This document shows positions 6,478-18,238 of a DNA stretch of 33,082 nucleotides, one piece after another. The DNA is from Sterolibacterium sp. (GTDB lineage: Bacteria > Pseudomonadota > Gammaproteobacteria > Burkholderiales > Rhodocyclaceae), in NCBI GenBank assembly GCA_018062105.1, contig JAGOSV010000023.1:1-33082 (forward strand), read 5' to 3'. Below the pieces are notes generated by a model. The model had not been told where the DNA came from. It worked only from the letters and a program-made list of their open reading frames with translations, and searched no databases. A program made the translations under genes and the position numbers. Each line of letters begins with the position of its first letter. The first letter of the stretch is position 1.

Positions 6478-8409
6478 TCAACCTTGCATCTCCAGCATCA
6501 GCTGATTGATGCGACGGACAAATCCGGCCGGATCATCGAGCTGCCCGCCTTCAGCCAGCAAGGCCTGATCGAACAACACGGCCGCCCAGTCATCAAAGCG
6601 TTTTTCTTCATGCTTTAGCCGTTGCACGACGGCATGTTTCGGATTGACTTCGAGAATGGGCCGGCTCTCCGGGGCTTGCTGGCCAGCGGCCTTCAGCATA
6701 CGCGCCAGGTTGCCCCCGATGTCGTGGCTGTCCGCCACCAGGCAGGCCGGGCTTTCCGTCAGACGATGCGTGATGCGCACTTCCTTGACACGCTCACCCA
6801 ATGAAGCCGCAATGCGATCAGTGAACTCCTTGAACTCATCCGCTTCCTTCTGCTGTTCTTCCTTCTCGGTGGCATCCTCCAGCGTCCCCAGATCCAGACC
6901 GCCGCGGGCCACCGAAACCAGCTGCTTGTCATCGAACTCCGGCAGATTGCCCGCCACCCACTCATCCACGCGCTCGGAGAGCAGCAGCACTTCGATGCCT
7001 TTCTTACGAAACACTTCGAGATGCGGGCTGTTCTTTGCCGCGTTGAAGGTTTCTGCCGTGACGTAATAAATCTTGTCCTGGCCTTCCTTCATGCGGCCGA
7101 TGTAATCCTTCAGGGATGCGCTCTCCTCGGCGGTATCTGCATGTGTCGAAGCAAAGCGCAGCAGACCGGCAATGCGTTCCTTGTTGGCAAAATCCTCACC
7201 GACCCCTTCCTTCAGCACCCGGCCAAACTCACGCCAGAACGTGATGAATTTCTCCGGCTGGTTTTCCGCCAAATCTTCCAGCATGGCCAGGGTGCGCTTG
7301 GTGCTGCCGGAACGGATGGCCTCGATATCACGGCTTTCCTGCAGGATTTCACGCGACACATTGAGCGGCAGATCGCTGCTGTCGATGATGCCGCGCACGA
7401 AGCGCAGATAGGTGGGCAGCAGCTGCTCGGCATCGTCCATGATGAAGACGCGACGGACATAGAGCTTGACGCCATGCTTGGAGTTGCGATCGAAAAGATC
7501 GAACGGTGCATGTGAGGGGATGTACAACAACTGGGTATATTCGGAACGCCCTTCGACGCGGGCATGGCTCCAAGTCAGCGGCTCGGAGTAATCGTGGCTG
7601 ACATGCTTGTAGAACTCGATGTATTCCTGATCCTCGATCGAGCTCTTAGAGCGCGCCCACAAGGCACTCGCCTGATTGACCGTTTCATCTTCGTCGGAGA
7701 TTTTCTGTGCCTGCGCCTCTTCGTCCCATGCTTCCTTCTTCATGACGATCGGTTGCAGGATGTGATCGGAATACTTGCGCACCAGGGTACGCAGGCGGTG
7801 ACCGGAAAGCAGGCTGTCTGCGCCCTCGCTGACATCATCACGCAGATGCAGGGTAATCTCGGTGCCTCGCGCCGGCTTGTCGACCAGCTCGATGGAGAAC
7901 TGGCCGCTGCCTTCGTCCTTCATGTCACATTCCCAGCGAATGCCTTGATCGGCATGCTCACCGGCGCGACGGCTATAGACCGTCACCTTGTCGGCCACGA
8001 TGAATGAAGAATAAAAACCGACGCCAAACTGGCCGATCAGATTGGCATCCTTTTGCTGGTCGCCGGACATGCGGGAGAAAAACTCGCGCGTGCCAGATTT
8101 AGCAATGGTGCCCAGATTCTGGATGGCGTCCTCGCGGTTCATGCCGATACCGTTATCGGCAATGGTCAGTGTTTTTGCCTCGGCATCGTAGGCAATGCGT
8201 ATTTTCAGGTCGCTGTCGCTCTCGAACAAGGCCGCATTGTGCAGCGCCTCGAAGCGTAGCTTGTCGCAAGCATCGGAAGCATTGGAAATCAGCTCGCGCA
8301 GAAAGATTTCATGGTTGCTGTACAGCGAGTGGATCATCAACTGGAGCAATTGTTTCACTTCAGCCTGGAAGCCGAGTGTTTCGCGCTCGGTACCGGTATT
8401 CACGGACAT
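6478..8409 (-). CDS. htpG: Chaperone protein HtpG (bacterial Hsp90)
   Basis: At 643 residues this has normal HtpG length. The N-terminal GHKL ATPase motifs are present: [35 protein letters not shown] and [11 protein letters not shown]. The middle domain carries RRVFIMDD and [11 protein letters not shown], and a C-terminal dimerisation region follows. It is a cytosolic ATP-dependent chaperone for late-stage client folding. The ATG at 8409 is preceded by AGGAG. A heat-shock sigma-32 promoter lies in the 79-bp gap to greB, so it can be induced separately from its neighbour. Confidence 0.98.
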
Positions 8410-8488: not shown

Positions 8489-9043
8489 TCAACGATAATG
8501 AATCGCCTCGATTTCGAGCTCACGCACCCCCTGTGGACTCTGGAAACGCACGATATCGCCCACTCGCGCCTTCATCAATGCTCGTGACAAAGGTGCGATC
8601 CAGCTGATACGCCCTACCGAAGCATCGGCCTCATCGATCCCGACGATCTGATATATCTGGCTGTGCCCATCGTCCGAATCAAGATCGATGATGGTCACCG
8701 TGGCACCAAAGAACACCTGCTCTAGATTCTCCTGCTCACAAGGATCAACCACTACTGCGTTTTCCAGACGCTTGGTCAGATAACGTATGCGCCGATCCAT
8801 CTCGCGCAGACGCTTCTTGCCATAGATGTAATCGCCATTCTCGGAACGATCGCCATTGCTGGCAGCCCAGGAAATCACCTGCACCAGAGCCGGTCGCTCC
8901 GTCTTGACGAGACGTTCGAATTCTTCACGCAAGGCACGATGACCCGGCGGCGTCATGTAATTGACCTGACCTGCCGGTAATTCAGGGAGCGGGGCGAGAT
9001 CGATGTCCTCGTCCTCAGTTTCACGGGTAAACGCCTTGCTCAT
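8489..9043 (-). CDS. greB: Transcription elongation factor GreB
   Basis: This 184-residue protein matches GreB: an N-terminal coiled-coil hairpin (YMTPPGHRALREEFERLV through MDRRIRYLTKRLENA) with acidic tip residues in NGDRSENGDYIYGKKRLRE, then the FKBP-like C-terminal domain (IYQIVGIDEADASVGRISWIAPLSRALM). The YIYGKKRLREMDRRI signature favours GreB over GreA. It binds the RNA polymerase secondary channel and stimulates transcript cleavage in backtracked complexes. An extra N-terminal acidic stretch of about 25 residues precedes the coiled coil. The gene lies 22 bp downstream of the kinase-HDOD gene, so the two may be co-transcribed. Confidence 0.95.
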   Translation of the reverse strand: MSKAFTRETEDEDIDLAPLPELPAGQVNYMTPPGHRALREEFERLVKTERPALVQVISWAASNGDRSENGDYIYGKKRLREMDRRIRYLTKRLENAVVVDPCEQENLEQVFFGATVTIIDLDSDDGHSQIYQIVGIDEADASVGRISWIAPLSRALMKARVGDIVRFQSPQGVRELEIEAIHYR

Positions 9044-9065: not shown

Positions 9066-11540
9066 TCACCGCCCCTGCTTGATGGCCAGCAAGGCTTGAT
9101 TACGTAAGGTCTTGAGCAGGCTGAGCACCTGCGGTGGAATCATGATATCTCCGGCATGACGCCGGTCGCAGTAAATCATGGCCACCGGCGTTCCCTTCAG
9201 GATCAAGGGAAACAGCACGAATGTCTCGGCTGGCACCTTGCTGCGATACCACTCCGGGATGCGGTCACCGATATTGGGATCATTGATATCGCTGATGATC
9301 AGATCGATCCCCTTGAGTGCCGCTGCCCGGAAAACATCGGTATCCCCAGCCAGGGAAAAACGAAAATGCGGCACCATCTCACCAGTATCGGCACCAAACC
9401 CGAAACGCCCCATCATGGAATTGGTCTTGGCATCTCGCACGCACAACAACACCCGGTCAAACCGCATGGCGCGGTACATGGTTTCCAGGATGATGCGCAG
9501 CACGTCATTCAACGAAAAATCATCGACCAGAGAATTGCTGATGTCCTGTATCCCGGCAGCCAGCGTAGCCTGGGCATCCTCCGGCACATTGCCGCCGGAT
9601 GATGTCTGCGCTCCGTCCATCGCATCCGCCGCGTCCTGGGCACCTTCCTGAAGCGCAGCAAACCCCGTCCCTTCAGGGCTGCCCGCACCCATCATGACCG
9701 AACGGGTCCAGTCGCTCCCGTCTGCACCGTCCTCCGCCTGGCTGCCAGCCCCGGCCAGATGCGCCACCCCGCCGCCCCAGGCCAGGGCCTGACGGACAAA
9801 CTGGCTTTGTTTCAGGTTGATCTGCAGGCTAATGGCAATCTGCTCAAGCTCTCCGACTGCCTTTTGCATCAGCTCCTTGAACTGGCCATCCGGCAAACGG
9901 ATACCCGCTGCAAAACGACCCGATATCTGCTTCATTGCCTTGGCGCGCTCTTCCGGTGGTGTATTGGCGATGCTGTCGCACAGCTCATTGGAGAAGCAGG
10001 CCACCAGATGCACCATGGCATCGCGAGTGGCCGGCTTCTTGACCACCCCAGGCGGCATCGGGCGCATGCTCTCCACCATGGATTCCGGAAAACCCCAATA
10101 TCGGGCAATGGTGGCGCCCAACTCACCGAACGACGTCCCCAGCACCTGATAGGCCGCCGCTTCCTGGCTGCATTCCTTCTGCATCGACAGACGGCGGATT
10201 TCCTCGACCTCATCAGGAAAGTAGAACTGCACCAACAGGCGACCGAGATCGTGAAACATCGCGCAGATGAAGACTTCCTCGGTTTCGCGCAGGGACATCT
10301 TCAGGCCGATGTCGCGTCCCAAAAGACCGGACAGGTTGGCTTTCAGGAAAGATTCCTTGATCTGGGCGGCATTAGCCTTGTCCTTCAGATGCTCGAACAT
10401 CACCAGCGTCAGGGCGATGTTGCGCACGGCATCAAAACCCAGCACGACCACAGCCCGGGAGACAGTGCTGATAGTCCCCCCCCCGGATTGTCGATACACC
10501 GGAGAATTAACCAGACGCAAGATTTTGGCCGTCAGGGCGTAATCGCGCAGGATGGTATTGGACAGGCGATTGATACTTTCCTTGTCAGAGTTCGTGATGC
10601 GGTTGATGGCCGTCACCGAATCCGAAAGTGCCGGGAAATCGGTCTTGTGGCGCATCCGGCGCAGCAAGAAATCCACCACCGCCTCCTGCTTCTCCCGCCC
10701 GGAGCCAACCTCGCCGTCAGACAGGGCATCGGGAGGATTGACGTAGTCACGCAATGCCTGCGCCATCTGGGCCGCATCCTGATAGCGCTTGGCTGGCTCA
10801 GGATCAACCGCCTTGAGGGCGATGGCCGCCATGCGCTCGTCAATCGCCCACTCCTCTTTCAGACGGACGGGCTGCTCGGTGATACTGGCCAGCATCGCCG
10901 GCACACTGGTCGCCAACCGGACACGCTGCCCGGCCAGCATCTCGATCAGAACCAGCCCGATGGCATAAATGTCCGAACGCTCATCACTAGTGCGATCCCG
11001 GACATACTCGGGTGCCATGTAAGGCAAGGTTCCCATCAGCGTCTGGTTTTTGCCCGCCTCACCATTGGGCTTTCCGGCCGCCCGCATTGCGATGCCAAAA
11101 TCCATGACCCGCGGCGCACCCTTGCTGTCGATGATGATATTGGAAGGCTTCAAGTCGCGATGGATGATGCTCTGGCCATGAGCCTCGGCCAGGGCATCGA
11201 GCACCGGTGCCAGGATGGTAGCGCCCCGTATCGAGTCAAGCGGACCTTTCCGCAGTACTTGCGCCAGGCTTTCCCCTGCGATGTATTCAAAGACCAGGTA
11301 GGGATCCCCGTCCTGCTCACCGGCCTCGAAGATCGGCACGATATTGGTGTGACGCAATTTGCTGACCATGCGTGCCTCGGCCAGCAAATGCGCGCTGAGG
11401 CGACGGTCTGCCTCGACAAAATGCAGGGTTTTGATGGCCACCTCGCGCTGCAGATGAGGATCGTTGCACAGATAAACCACGCTCTGTGCCCCGCGTCCCA
11501 GCTCGCGCACCACTTCAAAACGTCCGATTTTCTTCATCAT
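9066..11540 (-). CDS. Ser/Thr protein kinase - HDOD - GAF fusion protein
   Basis: This is an 824-residue cytoplasmic protein. Residues 7 to about 265 form a Hanks-type kinase with all key elements: glycine loop GRGAQS, Lys37 in VAIK, HRDLKPSN 127-134, DFG 147-149, APE 176-178. Residues about 285-495 form an HDOD domain (FPALSDSVTAINRITN, LRLVNSPVY, RAVVVLGFDAVRNIAL, FHDLGRLL). A low-complexity linker rich in Gly, Ala and Asp follows, then a GAF domain at about 650-810 (FDRVLLCVRDAKTNSMMGRFGFG). HDOD domains are non-catalytic relatives of HD-GYP found in signalling proteins. The architecture suggests a kinase whose activity is tuned by a GAF ligand and by partner binding to HDOD. No transmembrane segment is present. 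The start has a tandem ATGATG with GCAGG upstream. Confidence 0.92.
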   Translation of the reverse strand: MMKKIGRFEVVRELGRGAQSVVYLCNDPHLQREVAIKTLHFVEADRRLSAHLLAEARMVSKLRHTNIVPIFEAGEQDGDPYLVFEYIAGESLAQVLRKGPLDSIRGATILAPVLDALAEAHGQSIIHRDLKPSNIIIDSKGAPRVMDFGIAMRAAGKPNGEAGKNQTLMGTLPYMAPEYVRDRTSDERSDIYAIGLVLIEMLAGQRVRLATSVPAMLASITEQPVRLKEEWAIDERMAAIALKAVDPEPAKRYQDAAQMAQALRDYVNPPDALSDGEVGSGREKQEAVVDFLLRRMRHKTDFPALSDSVTAINRITNSDKESINRLSNTILRDYALTAKILRLVNSPVYRQSGGGTISTVSRAVVVLGFDAVRNIALTLVMFEHLKDKANAAQIKESFLKANLSGLLGRDIGLKMSLRETEEVFICAMFHDLGRLLVQFYFPDEVEEIRRLSMQKECSQEAAAYQVLGTSFGELGATIARYWGFPESMVESMRPMPPGVVKKPATRDAMVHLVACFSNELCDSIANTPPEERAKAMKQISGRFAAGIRLPDGQFKELMQKAVGELEQIAISLQINLKQSQFVRQALAWGGGVAHLAGAGSQAEDGADGSDWTRSVMMGAGSPEGTGFAALQEGAQDAADAMDGAQTSSGGNVPEDAQATLAAGIQDISNSLVDDFSLNDVLRIILETMYRAMRFDRVLLCVRDAKTNSMMGRFGFGADTGEMVPHFRFSLAGDTDVFRAAALKGIDLIISDINDPNIGDRIPEWYRSKVPAETFVLFPLILKGTPVAMIYCDRRHAGDIMIPPQVLSLLKTLRNQALLAIKQGR

Positions 11541-12622: not shown

Positions 12623-12970
12623 ATGGACAGACCAACCACCCACTGCCTGGCGAAATTCTGCGTCGACCAAAGCCATTGTTTTGAGGCACAGGACTGGTTG
12701 CACCTAGACAGTATCGACCCAAAGTCCGTCGCACTGGCGGCGCGCTACCTGTCGATGACGAGCTGGTATGGCCACGAAGAAATACTGGCAGATATTGCCG
12801 ACCGTATCGAGCCGTCCCGTTGCAATGACAGTGCCTGTCTGTGTCGTGAGGCGGAGCAGATCGGCTTCGATCTGCCCTACTTCTCCTACACGGTTCGTCT
12901 CGGCCTCACCCAGACACGCCGGCAAACGCAGAACCTTTGGAACCCCATCCTGGCCGCGGCCTGCCTGTAA
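12623..12970 (+). CDS. Hypothetical Cys-containing protein
   Basis: This is a 115-residue protein starting at ATG 12623, preceded by GGAGATCAGG. It has seven Cys: 8, 13, 19, then 67, 72 and 74 in a CNDSACLC motif, and 114. The motif could hold a metal or cluster, but no family is recognised. No signal peptide or membrane segment is seen. It converges on the FmdE-like gene, with 28 bp between them. It sits between the CBS gene and the NO-response island and may belong to neither. Coding status rests on the ribosome binding site and a sensible composition. Confidence 0.55.
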   Translation: MDRPTTHCLAKFCVDQSHCFEAQDWLHLDSIDPKSVALAARYLSMTSWYGHEEILADIADRIEPSRCNDSACLCREAEQIGFDLPYFSYTVRLGLTQTRRQTQNLWNPILAAACL

Positions 12971-12998: not shown

Positions 12999-13610
12999 TT
13001 ATCCCACCGGTTGCACGACGAATACTGCTTCGTCATTGCCATGCTCCAGCAGCAGGCTGCGCACCCGCGCCTGCCAGAGCACACCAAACCGCTGCGACTG
13101 CTCCTTGCTACCAGTACCTTTCAAGCATTGCTGCATCAGGGTCAGCATCTCCGGGTCAGCCGGAACCTGACGCGGATCCGCTGCGGCATCCACTGCTGCG
13201 CCCGTATCGGTGCGGGTATAGCGCATCTCCAACGGAATTCCAACATTGAATGCCATCAGGCGGCGGCGGTCAAAGCGCCCGGCCAGCCCCTTGAAACCGG
13301 TATCGACCGTCGCCCCGGTCAACATCGAAACGACATTGGCCACAACGCCCGTCACCCCCTCCAAGACATCCTGGCGGAACGCCACGTGAATGGCTCCGCG
13401 CTCCGGTAGTTCCTCACCATACAGGGCATGCAACGCCCGCCGCGTCAGCCAGTAGGCACCGGCAACAGTCGGACAGGAATGTCCGGCCAGTTTGACAACA
13501 TCGGGGTAGCCATATTCAATCACCCCACCCGCACAAGCCCCCAGAAATTCGGCCAAAGGGTCACGCACGGTCAGCGTGGGAACTTGCGAAAAAAACTCAG
13601 GGATTTGCAT
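12999..13610 (-). CDS. FmdE-like (formylmethanofuran dehydrogenase subunit E domain) protein
   Basis: This is a 203-residue protein starting at ATG 13610 with AAGGAG six bases upstream. A further ATG nine codons upstream was rejected because it lacks a site. The segment KLAGHSCPTVAGAYWLTRRALHALYG followed by GAIHVAF resembles the FmdE domain, whose His and Cys near the N-terminus bind zinc. The assignment is by eye and tentative. FmdE-domain proteins occur far outside methanogens without a settled role. It is the last gene of the leftward arm of the NO island and overlaps nnrS by 14 bp, which implies coupled expression. Confidence 0.6.
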   Translation of the reverse strand: MQIPEFFSQVPTLTVRDPLAEFLGACAGGVIEYGYPDVVKLAGHSCPTVAGAYWLTRRALHALYGEELPERGAIHVAFRQDVLEGVTGVVANVVSMLTGATVDTGFKGLAGRFDRRRLMAFNVGIPLEMRYTRTDTGAAVDAAADPRQVPADPEMLTLMQQCLKGTGSKEQSQRFGVLWQARVRSLLLEHGNDEAVFVVQPVG

Positions 13611-14715
13611 GAGAAACTCCTTGTGTCGAGTAAACACGGCTACGCACGGCCGCCGTCAGCATGGTGCCGACGAACAAGGCCAGAGCCAGGCCGTTGCCCA
13701 AGGCCGCCCAGCCCCGCAACTGGGGCAGCGCATCAAACAGGGCATCTCCCAGCACCCGCAACAGCAACGATGCATGCAGTACCAGCAAGGGAATATAAAA
13801 AAACGGGTGGTAACCGATACGGATCCGGGCAACCGCTGGCAGGATGATAGGTGCATGACCAAAAATCATCGAAAACACAAAGCCGAGAAAAACAGTGTGC
13901 AAGGCGGCATCGCGCAAGGGAGTCCCGGCCTGTGCCACATCCAGCCCACCGGCCAGAGCCAGCACGCCGCCCAGCATCAGCCAGACATAGCCCGCCAGCA
14001 GACAGCTGGCCACGAAGCGGGTCAACCCTGCCTGCTTCACCGTGCGCCGGGCAATGTCACAACGCAGCAGCCAAAGCGCCAAGGCCAGCAAACCCGCACC
14101 GAAGAGCCGCAAGCTCACCGCCGCCGACCAGAACGCCCCCACCAGACCCAACAGGCAGCCCACCACGATAGCCATAAAAACGTGCCGCCGGGTAGTACTC
14201 ATGGGCAAAAAACGGGTCAGTTCCAAACGTTCCCCAGCAATCGTCAGCACCAGGAAAGCCATCCACCATGGGACGGCCAGTGTCATCAGCCCCGTCAGCC
14301 ACCAACTCAGGTTCCCCACCAGCCAGCACAGTGCCCCCAGAGCCAGTGTCGCCAGATACTGCGCCGGCTGACGCAGAAAAAGCCACAGGCTGCCCGTCGA
14401 CAAAACAGCTGCTGCCAAAATCATCAACAGATGAACCACCCACATGGGCATCGCAGCCACCAGCGCCAGGCCGCTCAAACCTGCACTCAAGGGCGCGAGA
14501 TAAGCCCAGCGCCGACCCAAGGCCACGGCACGCTCCAGGCTGATGACCGTTCCCAGAAAAGCAGGAATCATCAACGCACCGTGCGCACCTGCCTGTGCCG
14601 CCGCCAACTCCGGAACAGGCAGAGGTGCGGCCAGACGCACCAGCCCGGCCAGCACGCCCAGAACCAGCGCCACACCCCCCAGCAGCAGCAAGGGCAGACG
14701 TGCGAACGGTGACAC
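13597..14715 (-). CDS. nnrS: NnrS family membrane protein
   Basis: This 372-residue, extremely hydrophobic protein has about eleven transmembrane helices and a GTG start at 14715 with AAGAGG upstream. NnrS-type features are AHGALMIPAFLGTVISLERAVALG near the N-terminus, DAALHTVFLGFVFSMIFGHAPIILPAVAR, and His residues at predicted membrane interfaces. The family is haem- and copper-binding and is repeatedly found in NO-responsive regulons of denitrifiers, where it protects against nitrosative stress. It is placed between a DUF2249 gene (9 bp upstream) and the FmdE-like gene (overlapping), in an operon with a predicted NsrR site at its head. Confidence 0.85.
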   Translation of the reverse strand: MSPFARLPLLLLGGVALVLGVLAGLVRLAAPLPVPELAAAQAGAHGALMIPAFLGTVISLERAVALGRRWAYLAPLSAGLSGLALVAAMPMWVVHLLMILAAAVLSTGSLWLFLRQPAQYLATLALGALCWLVGNLSWWLTGLMTLAVPWWMAFLVLTIAGERLELTRFLPMSTTRRHVFMAIVVGCLLGLVGAFWSAAVSLRLFGAGLLALALWLLRCDIARRTVKQAGLTRFVASCLLAGYVWLMLGGVLALAGGLDVAQAGTPLRDAALHTVFLGFVFSMIFGHAPIILPAVARIRIGYHPFFYIPLLVLHASLLLRVLGDALFDALPQLRGWAALGNGLALALFVGTMLTAAVRSRVYSTQGVSHANP

Positions 14716-14724
14716 AGCCGCCTC

Positions 14725-15009
14725 TTATACCGCCTGGCTGCAGCACGGTGAAGCCACTGCCGGCTTCACCGCCTTGCCGATACGCACCCGCCAGACCTCA
14801 GGGCCTTGCTCCAGATAGTCCCAGGTAAACTCCCCGCGCGATTCAGAGTGAAACTGGTAGAACAAGGGCTTGGGGTCGTGGTCATTGACCAGCAGCAAGC
14901 CTTCCCCTGGCGCCAGGCCGTCGAAGGTGCTGAAAATCAAGGGGTGACGCTCACGCGGTGCGATCGAACGTACATCAATCGTGGTCTTGAAGCCCTCAGT
15001 CGTGCTCAT
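14725..15009 (-). CDS. DUF2249 domain protein (leftward copy)
   Basis: This is a 94-residue protein starting at ATG 15009 with GGAG upstream. The DUF2249 core is clear: TIDVRSIAPRERHPLIFSTFDGL, GEGLLLVNDHDPKPLFYQF and FTWDYLEQGPEVWRVRIGK. A vicinal CC occurs near the C-terminus (SPCCSQAV). The fold is TusA-like and the function is unsettled, but these proteins cluster with hemerythrins, NnrS and NO-reductase genes. A paralogue (16218-16514) sits on the other side of the nsrR-like gene. It is 87 bp downstream of the MIP18-like gene and 9 bp upstream of nnrS. Confidence 0.88.
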   Translation of the reverse strand: MSTTEGFKTTIDVRSIAPRERHPLIFSTFDGLAPGEGLLLVNDHDPKPLFYQFHSESRGEFTWDYLEQGPEVWRVRIGKAVKPAVASPCCSQAV

Positions 15010-15096
15010 GAAATTCTCCAGAAAATGAAAGATCAGGAAAATGGCGTCCTCACGGAAACCATCGGGCAAGGACGCCCACCCTGCATCGCTCCTCTT

Positions 15097-15423
15097 TCAC
15101 CAGCCATAGTGCTGCCGCGCTTCCTCGCTCATCATTTTGGGGCTCCATGGTGGCTCCCAGACCAGACGAACCACCACCACACTGTCTTCCGGCAGCACGG
15201 AGCGCATGACCGTCTCGACATCCTCGACGATCATCTCACCCATCGGACAAGCCGGTGAAGTCATGGTCATCTCGATCACGAGTGTTGCCCCCTCCTCTTC
15301 ATAAGCAACGCAATACACCAATCCGAGATCGACAATATTCATGCCGACTTCAGGGTCGATCACGCGGCGCAGCGACGCTCGCAAAGATTCAATATCGGGG
15401 AATCCGTCAGGAATGGTGCTCAT
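15097..15423 (-). CDS. MIP18/PaaD-like (DUF59) metal-sulfur cluster assembly protein
   Basis: This is a 108-residue protein with the MIP18 signature: LRASLRRVIDPEVGMNIVDLGLVY, then IEMTMTSPACPMGEMIVEDVE with its conserved Cys, and VRLVWEPPWSPKMMSEEAR at the end. The family assists Fe-S cluster assembly or repair (SufT, PaaD). The start is uncertain: 15423 gives the usual family N-terminus, while ATGs at 15450 and 15471 would add a repetitive DTTDTTDA stretch. None has a strong ribosome binding site. It is first in the leftward NO-island operon, which suggests repair of NO-damaged Fe-S centres. Confidence 0.85.
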   Translation of the reverse strand: MSTIPDGFPDIESLRASLRRVIDPEVGMNIVDLGLVYCVAYEEEGATLVIEMTMTSPACPMGEMIVEDVETVMRSVLPEDSVVVVRLVWEPPWSPKMMSEEARQHYGW

Positions 15424-15506
15424 GGCGTCCGTGGTGTCCGTAGTGTCCATGGTCTTTGAAAGATGCATCAACGATGCAGCTACAGACTAGCACCCGTGAC
15501 AACAAA

Positions 15507-15529
15507 AAGCAATATAAAAAATACCGTTT
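15507..15529 (-). promoter_or_regulatory. NsrR-like operator upstream of the MIP18-DUF2249-nnrS operon
   Basis: A 23-bp window reads AAGCAATATAA-a-AAATACCGTTT on the plus strand. By my count it matches the known NsrR consensus (AAGATGYATTT-n-AAATRCATCTT) at 14 of 22 positions, best in the right half. It is about 85-105 bp upstream of the chosen start codon, a promoter-like location. Confidence 0.45.
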
Positions 15530-15636
15530 AATTCGCCCAGCAACGCCATGGCGACGCCTCCGGTCGCTATCACCGTAATACCACGGCACCACCCGACACC
15601 CCCAAAAGTGCGGTGATGGTCATGGCATCCCGGAGA

Positions 15637-16107
15637 TTACGATGTCGGGGAAGTGCGGGTGGAACGTCGAGTTTTGACCGGGTTCAGCAATTTCACCATG
15701 CTCCCCCCCTGCCCCATCAGGTCGGCCAGCGTGTACTCGTCGAGCTTGTCATAAAACGCGGCAAAGGCACTTTCCAGTATCCCGCTCAGCTGACAGGCTG
15801 GTGCAATGCAGCAGGCCATCTTGTCGCTGCCCATGCACTCAACGATGGGGGCCTCTCCCTCACTGGAACGCACTACGGCCCCCAGGCGTATCCTGCTGGC
15901 CGGGCCCGCCAGGCGGATGCCACCGCCCTTGCCGCGCATCGAATCGACAAAACCGTTGCGAGCAAGCTGATGAACGACCTTCATCAGATGATTTTCAGAA
16001 ATGCCATAGGCCGTCGCCACCTCGGGAATAGTGGCCTGCCGGTCTGGATCCAGAGCCAGATACATCAGGACACGCAAGGTGTAGTCCGTAAAGGTGGTCA
16101 TCCTCAT
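15637..16107 (-). CDS. nsrR: Rrf2-family NO-sensing repressor, NsrR-like
   Basis: This is a 156-residue protein. The N-terminus (MTTFTDYTLRVLMYLA) and the winged helix (TIPEVATAYGISENHLMKVVHQLARNGFVDSMRGKGGGIRLA) are typical of NsrR. Cys at 91, 99, 100 and 105 (VEC...ACCIAPACQL) fit the three-Cys site that holds the [Fe-S] cluster in NsrR; either 99 or 100 could be the middle ligand. NO nitrosylates this cluster and lifts repression. The ATG at 16107 has GGTGA upstream. The C-terminus is extended and basic (KTRRSTRTSPTS). It lies between the two arms of the island and should control both and itself. Confidence 0.88.
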   Translation of the reverse strand: MRMTTFTDYTLRVLMYLALDPDRQATIPEVATAYGISENHLMKVVHQLARNGFVDSMRGKGGGIRLAGPASRIRLGAVVRSSEGEAPIVECMGSDKMACCIAPACQLSGILESAFAAFYDKLDEYTLADLMGQGGSMVKLLNPVKTRRSTRTSPTS

Positions 16108-16120
16108 ATCAATTCACCGT

Positions 16121-16143
16121 AAGATGTGCAATAAATATTGCTT
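16121..16143. promoter_or_regulatory. NsrR-like operator 1 in the nsrR/DUF2249 divergent region
   Basis: AAGATGTGCAA-t-AAATATTGCTT is 23 bp and matches the NsrR consensus at 15 of 22 positions, including an intact AAGATG left end. It contains the perfect inverted repeat GCAATA-aa-TATTGC. It lies 14-36 bp upstream of the nsrR start, suited to autorepression. Confidence 0.6.
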
Positions 16144-16167
16144 TACTGACGCCCAACTGCTAGCATC

Positions 16168-16190
16168 AAGGTACGCAGTAAATATACCTT
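16168..16190. promoter_or_regulatory. NsrR-like operator 2 in the nsrR/DUF2249 divergent region
   Basis: AAGGTACGCAG-t-AAATATACCTT is 23 bp with AAGGTA/TACCTT outer arms and a right half matching 9 of 11 consensus bases. It is centred 47 bp from operator 1 and 28-50 bp upstream of the DUF2249 start at 16218, so it would control the rightward arm. Confidence 0.55.
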
Positions 16191-16217
16191 ATGTCACCAC
16201 TAAATGAGAGGTTTGTC

Positions 16218-16514
16218 ATGCGCCATGAACAAAGTCTCCCTACCCGTCTGGATTTACGCGAAATTCCGGCTGAAGAACGTCGCCTGCGGGTGTTGTCGAC
16301 CTTCGGTCATCTACATCCTGGCGACACCTTGCTGCTGACCCACTCTCATCCCTCGAATCCCCTGCGCTACCTTCTGTTGGCCGAAGCCCCGCGCGCCTTC
16401 ACCTGGCAGTACCTCGAAGAAGGCCCGCAGATATGGCGCATCTGCATCCGCAAAATGCTGCAACCCTTGGCTGCCGGTTGCGATCGTGGCGCACGGCAAG
16501 GCAGGACATCATGA
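16218..16514 (+). CDS. DUF2249 domain protein (rightward copy)
   Basis: This is a 98-residue paralogue of the leftward DUF2249 protein: RLDLREIPAEERRLRVLSTFGHL, GDTLLLTHSHPSNPLRYLLL and FTWQYLEEGPQIWRICIRK. ATG 16218 was chosen because GAGAGG lies six bases upstream; an ATG at 16191 abuts the NsrR-like site and lacks a ribosome binding site. It is the first gene of the rightward arm. Its stop overlaps the next start (ATGA), so the flavoprotein is translationally coupled to it. Confidence 0.88.
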   Translation: MRHEQSLPTRLDLREIPAEERRLRVLSTFGHLHPGDTLLLTHSHPSNPLRYLLLAEAPRAFTWQYLEEGPQIWRICIRKMLQPLAAGCDRGARQGRTS

Positions 16515-17380
16515 ATACCCCGCTTTGCGCCATCGCACCAGATACCAGCAAAGACGCCGGTATTGATGACGGCGCCAGCACCAGCATCGTTACGGCACCT
16601 GGCAACGAAAAATGGACGACGGAGCGTGTGCTGTCGGTACGGCGCTGGACGCCGAATCTGTTTTCCTTTCGCACGACCCGCCATGCCAGTTTCCGATTTA
16701 CACCGGGGCAGTTCGCCCGTCTTGGTGTTCCATTGCATGCAGATGACCCCGACAGCCCCCTGGTCTGGCGCGCCTACTCGATGGCCTGTGCGACTTATGA
16801 CGAATATCTCGAGTTTTATTCCATCGTCGTACCCGGCGGTGAATTCACCTCGCGCTTGCAGAGCCTGCGCCCGGGCGATCCGCTGTGCATCGAAAAAACG
16901 AGCTATGGATTCCTGACGACGGATCGTTTTGTCGGTGGGCAGGATTTATGGCTGCTGGCCAGCGGTACCGGTATTGCGCCCTTTCTCTCCATCCTTCATG
17001 ACCCGCAGCTCTGGCAGGACTATCGTCATCTGATCCTCGTCCACAGCGTACGCCAGCAGGATGAACTGGCCTACCAGGAGGAAATCGCCGTTCTGCCTCA
17101 TCACGAGTTACTGCGTCACAGCCCTGCCCATCTGCGTTATCTGCCCGTCGTCACACGCGAACCGCATGCCGGGGTATTGAACGAACGTCTCACCCGGCTC
17201 ATCAGCAATGGTCGACTGGAAGCTGCGGCCGGCCTGCCACTCGAAGTCGAGCGCTCGCGCCTGATGATCTGCGGCAACCCGCAAATGGCCGCCGACCTGC
17301 GCGACCTGCTAACCAAACGCGGCTTCCGGGTCGGCCGGCGCGGTGTCCCTGGCCAGCTGGCCTTTGAAAATTATTGGTAA
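16511..17380 (+). CDS. Ferredoxin-NADP+ reductase-like flavoprotein
   Basis: This is a 289-residue protein starting in an ATGA overlap with the DUF2249 gene. After a variable 32-residue N-terminus comes an FAD domain with RAYS at 87-90 and a preceding FTPGQFARLG. An NADP domain follows, with GTGIAPF at 152-158, the MICGNPQM motif, and a C-terminus ending FENYW, as in bacterial plant-type FNR (Fpr) proteins. It should transfer electrons between NADPH and a ferredoxin, flavodoxin or haem/di-iron partner. In this operon a plausible partner is the hemerythrin encoded next, but that is inference. Confidence 0.88.
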   Translation: MNTPLCAIAPDTSKDAGIDDGASTSIVTAPGNEKWTTERVLSVRRWTPNLFSFRTTRHASFRFTPGQFARLGVPLHADDPDSPLVWRAYSMACATYDEYLEFYSIVVPGGEFTSRLQSLRPGDPLCIEKTSYGFLTTDRFVGGQDLWLLASGTGIAPFLSILHDPQLWQDYRHLILVHSVRQQDELAYQEEIAVLPHHELLRHSPAHLRYLPVVTREPHAGVLNERLTRLISNGRLEAAAGLPLEVERSRLMICGNPQMAADLRDLLTKRGFRVGRRGVPGQLAFENYW

Positions 17381-17409
17381 ATCACCCTGCCCCCATCATG
17401 GAGCACGCC

Positions 17410-17874
17410 ATGAAACGCCGTCCCGAATTACTGCAACTGTCACGTGAACATCACACCGCCCTGGTGCTGGCCAAACGCGCCCAACGATTGGCCCAGGGCG
17501 CGGCTACGGACGCCCGTGAATTCATGGACGAGCTGCCCGCACGCTTTGCCAGCGAGCTCGAGCCCCACTTTCAGGTCGAAGAAATCGCCCTGCTCTCCGC
17601 TTTGCAAGACAGCCACCCGGAAGATGACATCATCCAGATGGTGGCGCGCACCCTGCTGGAACACAACCAGCTGAGAACCCTGGCAACACGCCTCGGCCAG
17701 CAGGACTTTTCCCGTCTCGCCCCGTTTGGCGAACTACTGGGCAATCATGTCCGCTTCGAAGAGCGAGAGCTGTTCCAGGCCGCTGAAACCCTGCTGAGCC
17801 CGGCCGCCCTGTCCCGCATCGAGACTGCCTGCCAGCAGTCTGGCGCCGGCTGCACCTCGGCGCTTCCCTCATAA
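17410..17874 (+). CDS. Hemerythrin HHE-domain protein
   Basis: This is a 154-residue protein starting at ATG 17410 with GGAG seven bases upstream. A four-helix hemerythrin fold is suggested by candidate ligands His15 (REHHTAL), His53 and Glu57 (EPHFQVEE), His85 (LLEHNQL), and His113 with Glu118 (NHVRFEERELF). Such di-iron proteins bind O2 or NO, or repair Fe-S clusters in the manner of YtfE. It lacks the N-terminal ScdA domain of YtfE. Two Cys occur near the C-terminus (ETACQQSGAGC). It lies 29 bp after the flavoprotein gene, in the same operon. Confidence 0.9.
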   Translation: MKRRPELLQLSREHHTALVLAKRAQRLAQGAATDAREFMDELPARFASELEPHFQVEEIALLSALQDSHPEDDIIQMVARTLLEHNQLRTLATRLGQQDFSRLAPFGELLGNHVRFEERELFQAAETLLSPAALSRIETACQQSGAGCTSALPS

Positions 17875-17905
17875 TCGGCCCATCACCCTGCAAGGAGCCC
17901 GACTC

Positions 17906-18238
17906 ATGGCCATGTCCCACGCCGCCTCCGGCGACATCATCAACATCCGGCCATTGGCCGAGCAGCTGAAACAAACCCCCTCCAGCACCCTGGTACGTGC
18001 CCCGCACCTCGAAGTATTCCGGCTGGTTTTACCCGCCGGCAAAGCTACCCAGGAGCATCGCGCCGCCGGCACCATCACCATCCAATGCCTCGAAGGGCGG
18101 CTGGAACTCGATGCCCATCAACAAACCCGAATCATGCAGGCCGGCGACCTGGTCTATCTTGCCGATGCCGAACCACATGCCGTCCGTGCCATTGAAGACA
18201 CCGCGCTGCTGATCACCGTACTGCTGCATCGTGAATAA
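17906..18238 (+). CDS. Small cupin-domain protein
   Basis: This is a 110-residue single cupin starting at ATG 17906 with AAGGAG upstream. The barrel motif is visible: LPAGKATQEHRAAGTITIQCLEGRLEL, then MQAGDLVYLADAEPHAVRAIEDTALLITVLL. One His of the usual metal-binding pair in motif 1 appears to be replaced, so metal binding is uncertain. It resembles small cupins found beside hemerythrin and DUF2249 genes in NO-related clusters. It is the last gene of the rightward arm, 31 bp after the hemerythrin gene, and is followed by about 208 bp without a recognisable gene. Confidence 0.85.
   Translation: MAMSHAASGDIINIRPLAEQLKQTPSSTLVRAPHLEVFRLVLPAGKATQEHRAAGTITIQCLEGRLELDAHQQTRIMQAGDLVYLADAEPHAVRAIEDTALLITVLLHRE

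Follow-up and report, generated by a model that had tools for sequence, protein, structure and literature searches.

A MIP18-like gene paired with an NnrS-like membrane gene, and its NsrR-type operators, in Sterolibacterium and related bacteria

The contig JAGOSV010000023.1 of Sterolibacterium sp. (assembly GCA_018062105.1), analyzed over 33,082 nucleotides and called the window here, belongs to a draft genome of 2.79 Mb that is 88.5% complete, and carries nine genes at 12999–18238 around a regulator of the Rrf2 family. The core of this island is a pair of genes, one encoding a MIP18-like protein of iron-sulfur (Fe-S) assembly and the other a membrane protein with a heme-copper-oxidase fold, while the island as a whole is one genus's arrangement of the usual companions of that pair. 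Where an rrf2 gene is adjacent, the pair is very probably regulated by nitric oxide (NO) through NsrR. The explanation we favor, with somewhat better than even confidence, is an NsrR-controlled module of denitrifiers serving NO defense and the maintenance of Fe-S centers and iron. An initial annotation had proposed a two-armed NO response island of nine genes. All nine reading frames are present in the order it gave, and the layout in two arms around the Rrf2 gene is real in the window and in three congeners. Its family labels stand for seven of the nine proteins, which pass the curated Pfam cut-offs; the FmdE-like and "NnrS" labels fail.

All loci were collected through the membrane protein, and the counts of neighboring genes are conditional on that. 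The protein was found in 19 of the 61 neighborhood genomes searched with it. An alignment scan of genome contigs confirmed at least 552 relatives, from which the best 80 loci were kept; these, 17 further loci and the window, minus four duplicates, make up 94 deduplicated loci. Among the best 80, the relatives are mostly betaproteobacteria such as Aromatoleum, Azoarcus, Thauera, Dechloromonas, and Gallionella, with a few elsewhere, in Methylophaga, Sedimenticola, and metagenome-assembled genomes labelled Magnetospirillum, Chitinophaga or Anaerolineae. Of the 94 loci, 90 have the MIP18 gene directly upstream of the membrane gene, at no more than 1.2 kb; in the best 80 alone it is directly upstream in 76 and nearby in 77. 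The four exceptions, all in the best 80, comprise one contig end, one locus with the MIP18 gene about 3 kb away, and two with none. The companions found near the best 80 loci are DUF2249 (29), Rrf2 (28), hemerythrin (26), the FmdE-like protein (8), and cupin (3), and a flavoprotein occurs near 11, some of these being distant paralogues. The complete nine-gene set in two arms is present only in the window and three congeners, which are four genomes of one genus, and the nearest approach to it (locus L091) has seven of the nine families, differently ordered, over about 16 kb. Since the pair is kept in 90 of 94 loci and the full set in one genus, the gene pair is the core and the island is genus-specific. 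The expected co-occurrence of the nine families in betaproteobacteria thus stands for part of the set and is limited to the genus for the whole. The same division applies to gene order, whose loss elsewhere had been named as evidence against the proposal: the pair is conserved elsewhere, and the full order is confined to the genus.

The MIP18-like protein passes the PF01883 model (52.3 bits against a cut-off of 23.5), and the NCBIfam SufT, SUF-associated, and PaaD models match it below their cut-offs. Its true start is probably the ATG at 15450 or 15423, further in than the start of the reading frame, because a putative operator covers 15462–15480.

The regulator had been called NsrR-like, and this is borne out by the conservation of all its Fe-S ligands and by operators in both arms. 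The [4Fe-4S] cluster of Streptomyces coelicolor NsrR (ScNsrR) is held by three cysteines and Asp8, with Arg12, according to the available part of PMC5411485. The corresponding residues of the Rrf2 protein are C91, C99, C105, D8, and R12, which are invariant in 26 of 26 aligned Rrf2 sequences. The best NCBIfam match of the protein is NsrR at 136 bits, against 50 for IscR, and its best solved structures are those of S. coelicolor NsrR (5n07 and 5n08).

The operators were searched with the consensus gATGyAT-N5-ATrCATc, as given in the consulted portion of PMC1274295, which occurs with one mismatch at 15462–15480. At up to three mismatches the whole window contains six sites against 4.2 expected. 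There is no window-wide excess, and therefore it is the position of the sites that counts. Before the MIP18 gene, the consensus at up to two mismatches was found in 16 of 36 loci with an adjacent Rrf2 gene and in 2 of 58 without one (p 1.4e-6), as compared with 0.3–0.4% of shuffled promoters; after deduplication the counts are 14/33 and 2/57 (p 6e-6). A palindromic motif was also trained on the promoters of loci with an adjacent Rrf2 gene; in leave-one-out scoring it reached at least 10 bits in 27 of 33 such loci, in 3 of 57 others (p 5e-14), and in 2% of shuffles. The consensus test is the fairer of the two, because related loci stay in the training of the motif.

The sites are also paired. 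In 21 of the 33 Rrf2-adjacent loci, the best two sites have a spacing of exactly 47 bp. Spacings of 46–48 bp occur in 23 of these 33 and in 1 of the 57 loci without Rrf2; shuffling gives a mean of 0.8 and a maximum of 4 in 200 rounds. Such pairing suggests that two repressor dimers may act together. The top three of the 33,064 window positions (15462–15480, 15509–15527, and 16123–16141) all fall in the promoters of the two arms. Right-arm promoters were kept out of the motif learning; across the four congeners, their best two sites are spaced by 47, 47, 47, and 49 bp, and the second site scores 10.7, 10.2, and 11.7 bits in three of them. Outside the promoters, sites that score 12 bits or more are rare (11 among 1.4 million positions). 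The genus has two perfect copies of the core pattern, one in G002 (99% complete) and one in G003, both at the island locus.

The membrane protein had been labelled NnrS, and this label is not upheld. The window protein matches no Pfam family, PF05940 (NnrS) included, at E<=10, and no NCBIfam family at E<=0.001. Among 50 closer relatives one matches PF05940 at E<=0.01, and in a wider set with distant relatives 3 of 18 match it at E<=1 (best 1.9e-4), from which a distant kinship with NnrS is possible. Membership of PF05940 was rejected on the missing model match, an insignificant profile comparison, and the single matching relative in 50. The PF05940 model itself finds matches in 34 of the 41 genomes of the taxonomic family. 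A PF05940 search of the source genome gave no match, and since no control matched either, absence from this genome is not established.

On the other hand, the fold is recognizable. An AlphaFold2 model built from 50 sequences has a predicted local distance difference test (pLDDT) score of 94.4 and 12 long helices. When it was compared with the PDB by Foldseek, the first 38 of the 50 listed matches were heme-copper oxidases, NO reductases or oxidase-bearing respiratory supercomplexes, with probabilities of 0.99–1.00 in the first 30 and TM-scores by query length up to 0.69. The overall fold is common to NorB of cNOR (probability 1.00, TM-score by query length 0.58–0.62) and to subunit I of cbb3 oxidase (probability 1.00, 0.64–0.69), at about 12–15% identity. 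A control model of a true NnrS (11 sequences, pLDDT 85) found heme-copper oxidases, complex IV, and NO reductases within its first 14 listed matches, so that the fold class is common to the membrane protein and NnrS. In a viral fold library nothing was found at E<=0.001, the top two matches having probabilities of 0.95 and 0.30 and TM-scores below 0.3, and the profile of the membrane family matched no solved-structure sequence.

All 50 relatives have H45, H273, H287, E61, E162, and E165, and 49 of them have H314. No histidine is conserved at 85% or more of the 50 sequences in the helices at 144–169 and 174–193 (TM6 and TM7), which we take to be where oxidases and NO reductases hold their CuB or FeB ligands; in this the family differs from cNOR and cbb3 oxidase. 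Classical reduction of NO or O2 by the protein is thus unlikely. With NnrS, the protein shares 12 predicted helices, the heme-copper-oxidase fold, and three colinear histidines, H45, H273, and H287 being paired with NnrS histidines in a second profile alignment that spans most of the length and is insignificant. The motifs differ, since NnrS has WHAHEM and GHTGR and the membrane family has HGxLM and GHAP instead. Moreover, several loci have a true NnrS gene of their own close to the membrane gene, and the two can stand side by side. The protein likely belongs to a second, NnrS-type family without a name, and likely carries heme. Ten plasmid records with a relative call the gene "hypothetical protein" in seven cases and leave it unlisted in three.

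The initial annotation had found no NO reductase and had suggested an undescribed detoxification module on that ground. The statement holds for the island, but the source genome has cNorB on another contig (G000:C121, 3o0r at 4e-223) in addition to the cytochrome cd1 nitrite reductase NirS (G000:C79, 1bl9 at 2.5e-159). An organism without NO reductase was therefore rejected, and the premise of a stand-alone or substitute NO detoxification fails here, because NirS and cNOR are both present.

Among the 61 genomes, 17 of the 19 with the membrane gene have a NirS-type match, as do 16 of the 42 without it (p 2e-4); within the taxonomic family the counts are 15 of 17 and 11 of 20, respectively (p 0.04). 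The NCBIfam NirK model exceeds its cut-off in 4 of the 61. NO reductase was scored as matches of at least 60 bits (38 of 61 genomes), and the lists of NO reductase, NirS, and membrane gene were read by eye; in the congener G003 the NO reductase is a 178-bit match of 35% identity and NirS a fragment of 143 residues. The idea that the membrane gene replaces NO reductase is not supported, as it occurs in 4 of 6 genomes with NirS and no NO reductase match against 13 of 27 with both (11 of 25 after dropping two doubtful NirS matches), the former six being too few to tell the groups apart. With duplicates counted, 22 of 98 loci have nor genes or true NnrS no more than 8 kb from the membrane gene; the NnrS, NorB, NorQ, and NorD labels were checked in Pfam on one representative each and the NorC label was assigned by us.

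The candidate mechanism begins with the Rrf2 protein, which would act as an NsrR-type [4Fe-4S] repressor on the operator pairs, spaced mostly by 47 bp, ahead of the MIP18 operon. In the Sterolibacterium genus it would also bind between rrf2 and the arm of DUF2249, flavoprotein, hemerythrin, and cupin genes. NO formed by nitrite reduction would destroy the NsrR cluster and thereby open both arms. The membrane protein, as a sister to NnrS, probably holds heme via H45 and H273/H287, and at the membrane it would probably bind or shield NO. Provision or repair of Fe-S or iron centers is the probable task of the MIP18-like protein, which would serve either the membrane protein or targets damaged by NO and may be helped by DUF2249, hemerythrin, and the NAD(P)H flavoprotein. 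Gene order, family assignments, operators, ligand conservation, and fold are computed results; we infer the repression, the response to NO, the heme binding, every catalytic step, and the role of the gene pair.

Several results weigh against the proposed module. The Rrf2 score of 136 bits is under the NsrR cut-off of 182 and close to that of RirA (124). Operator counts and genome association tests ignore kinship. In the window, little is left of the second right-arm site (2.0 bits). Core sites with at most one mismatch number 5 in the source genome, 8 in G001, 2 in G002, and 7 in G003, against 0, 0, 1, and 5 for a reversed control pattern in the same order; with several one-mismatch sites per genome, further NsrR targets in the genus are possible. 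In addition, 57 of the 90 loci with an upstream MIP18 gene have no adjacent Rrf2 gene and mostly no such operator, so that NsrR control is not universal. Among the loci without Rrf2, 2 of 58 have perfect FNR/DNR boxes, and 10 of 58 have boxes at up to two mismatches, for which the shuffled rate is 4%. For the membrane protein, the profile comparison with true NnrS is insignificant (probability 5% and 3%), and the best Foldseek E-value is 3.2e-3, with none at or below 0.001. Without two matches of 46% identity (G012 and G035), the NirS association falls to 15/19 against 16/42 (p 0.005) and within the taxonomic family to p 0.30, and the association with NO reductase is weak (15/19 against 23/42, p 0.09).

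Among the rival explanations, an ordinary NsrR regulon of the type forecast in 2005, which would comprise a divergent NnrS and hypothetical genes already linked to NO and would be new in its local gene order alone, is unlikely but has to be taken seriously. Both nnrS and COG4309 (DUF2249) are predicted members of NsrR regulons in betaproteobacteria (PMC1274295, in part), the operator motif is the published one, and repression of the Escherichia coli suf operon by NsrR has already been described (PMC8593673, in part). The fold class shared with NnrS and the weak PF05940 matches of three distant relatives would fit as well, but the window protein and nearly all closer relatives lack such a match, and true NnrS stands nearby as a separate gene. 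Moreover, neither the pairing with MIP18 nor the 47-bp operator pairs were met in the consulted portions of the NsrR literature, in which the 47-bp spacing was not searched for. It is likewise improbable, though credible, that the set is a maturation module for denitrification enzymes or other Fe-S or heme enzymes, with the NO response as its switch only, in which the MIP18-like, FmdE-like, DUF2249, and membrane proteins would assemble or insert cofactors. SufT-type (DUF59) proteins act in the maturation of Fe-S proteins (PMC8593673, in part), the constant part of the loci is the gene pair and includes no known NO-consuming enzyme, the membrane protein lacks conserved TM6/TM7 histidines, and its gene is associated more strongly with NirS than with NO reductase. 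Against such a role, no maturation partner or target was identified, and 16 of the 33 genomes with a NirS-type match lack the membrane gene.

The electron route of the initial annotation, from NAD(P)H through the flavoprotein to the di-iron site of the hemerythrin for reducing NO or repairing Fe-S clusters, is very improbable. The right-arm genes are contiguous and conserved in four congeners, and the second DUF2249 and flavoprotein genes are coupled by an ATGA overlap, correctly placed at 16511–16514. However, this contiguous order is seen in one genus only. A flavoprotein gene is missing from most loci, and 6 of the 94 have it immediately after the membrane gene and in the same orientation. 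The flavoprotein has no Pfam 2Fe-2S domain match, and the host has cNOR. A doubtful reading is that the gene pair represents a new kind of membrane enzyme for handling NO, which it would consume or sequester. Equally doubtful is its proposed chemistry, a non-canonical metal site with the invariant E162, E165, and H287 as candidates, which would be matured by the MIP18 partner. If this were true, bacteria with NirS and no NO reductase could live with their own NO. Candidate hosts are the four genomes with NirS and the membrane gene and without an NO reductase match, among them Candidatus Desulfobacillus denitrificans. This organism (L119, AP021857.1) has MIP18, DUF2249, the membrane gene, Rrf2, and paired NsrR-type sites; it has nirS and is reported without norBC and norVW in the available part of PMC8402940, and a NorB search of G013, taken to be its genome, gave oxidase-level matches only. 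It thus offers a natural setting in which to test what the pair does.

Compared with the betaproteobacterial NsrR regulons of Rodionov et al. (PMC1274295, as far as that text was available), in which nnrS and COG4309 are predicted targets and COG4309 is linked to NorB, the island shares the Rrf2/NsrR regulator, the operator, and the nnrS-type and COG4309 targets. It differs in having no hmp, hcp or norB, in its targets, a MIP18 gene and a membrane family without a name, and in operators paired at 47 bp. SufT and NsrR are treated in separate sections of PMC8593673 (in part). DUF2249 proteins are induced in haloarchaeal denitrification (PMC11218638) and were studied in Thermus nitrate respiration (PMC6282519), and NnrS is credited with guarding the iron pool against dinitrosyl iron complexes (PMC11526790, citing others), all three sources being available in part. 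A limited literature search found nothing joining MIP18/SufT with NnrS or denitrification. The new elements are the oxidase-fold family without a name, its near-constant MIP18 partner, and the 47-bp operator pairs, a spacing for which no search of earlier print was made.

A related set is found on plasmid pHG1 of Cupriavidus necator, where MIP18, a homologous membrane protein annotated "hypothetical protein", Rrf2, DUF2249, and hemerythrin lie together, and where these genes, norR-ytfE-norB, and nrdDG fall within about 12 kb; the incomplete gene table of this stretch lists no FmdE-like or flavoprotein gene. On a Paraburkholderia plasmid, true NnrS, hemerythrin, DUF2249, and Rrf2 genes face MIP18, DUF2249, and the membrane gene. 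NO handling by denitrifiers decides how much NO and N2O escapes, and several NO-linked families have no known role. One such family is now sharply defined by its oxidase fold, MIP18 partner, paired operator, and natural hosts, which include NO makers without a known NO reductase. NsrR was already connected to Fe-S assembly through suf in E. coli, and the connection now reaches a dedicated MIP18 gene that has a membrane protein gene as its partner.

Table 1. Genes and NsrR-type operator sites of the island, in window coordinates.
Feature	Position	Strand	Remarks
FmdE-like protein, GHSCP motif	12999..13610	-	open reading frame (ORF); PF02663 18.1 bits; 14-base overlap with membrane gene
12-helix membrane protein, heme-copper-oxidase fold, NnrS-like, outside PF05940	13597..14715	-	
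DUF2249 (COG4309 type), left arm	14725..15009	-	PF10006 111.7 bits
MIP18/SufT-like Fe-S assembly protein	15097..15471	-	PF01883 52.3 bits
Proximal NsrR-type operator, left arm	15462..15480	.	1 mismatch to published consensus; top score of the window
Distal NsrR-type operator, left arm	15509..15527	.	47 bp from proximal site
NsrR-like Rrf2 regulator	15637..16107	-	D8, R12, C91, C99, C105
NsrR-type operator between rrf2 and right arm	16123..16141	.	third-best site of the window
Degenerate second right-arm site	16170..16188	.	47 bp from first; 2.0 bits, window rank 33
Second DUF2249	16218..16514	+	PF10006 66.2 bits; ORF opens at 16191
FNR-type flavoprotein	16511..17380	+	PF00175; ATGA overlap with DUF2249
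Hemerythrin (HHE) protein	17410..17874	+	PF01814 32.7 bits
Cupin protein	17906..18238	+	PF07883 34 bits

The companion proteins gave fewer leads. The PF02663 score of the FmdE-like protein is under the cut-off of 22.9, its GHSCP motif is invariant in 8 of 8 aligned sequences, and its single match among solved structures (E 0.03) was taken as chance. The two DUF2249 copies carry different motifs, HDPKPL in the left arm (14725–15009) and HxSxPL in the right arm (16218–16514), and H44 is invariant in 9 of 9 aligned sequences; among solved structures DUF2249 gave chance matches to designed repeats only. The flavoprotein matches the ferredoxin-NADP reductase model PRK10926 at 181 bits, under its cut-off of 390.

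Other genes recur around the membrane gene in relatives. A hydrophobic ORF of 380 residues is present at L071:5871-7013 (no Pfam match), L026 (the same contig as L071), L091, L094, and L135, and stands beside nor genes in some loci. Seven loci (L025, L027, L072, L074, L078, L080, and L081) have a DsrC-like gene no further than 6 kb from the membrane gene, the assignment being made from one representative (L074:8703-9071). A MarR-like gene (representative L080:8734-9174) is near it in seven loci, five of which are shared with the DsrC-like set. In the window, an ORF of 115 residues without a Pfam match (12623–12970, plus strand) lies just past the FmdE-like gene. A protein of 824 residues with protein kinase, HDOD, and weak GAF matches is encoded at 9066–11540 on the minus strand, and its gene adjoins those of GreB (8489–9043) and HtpG (6478–8409).

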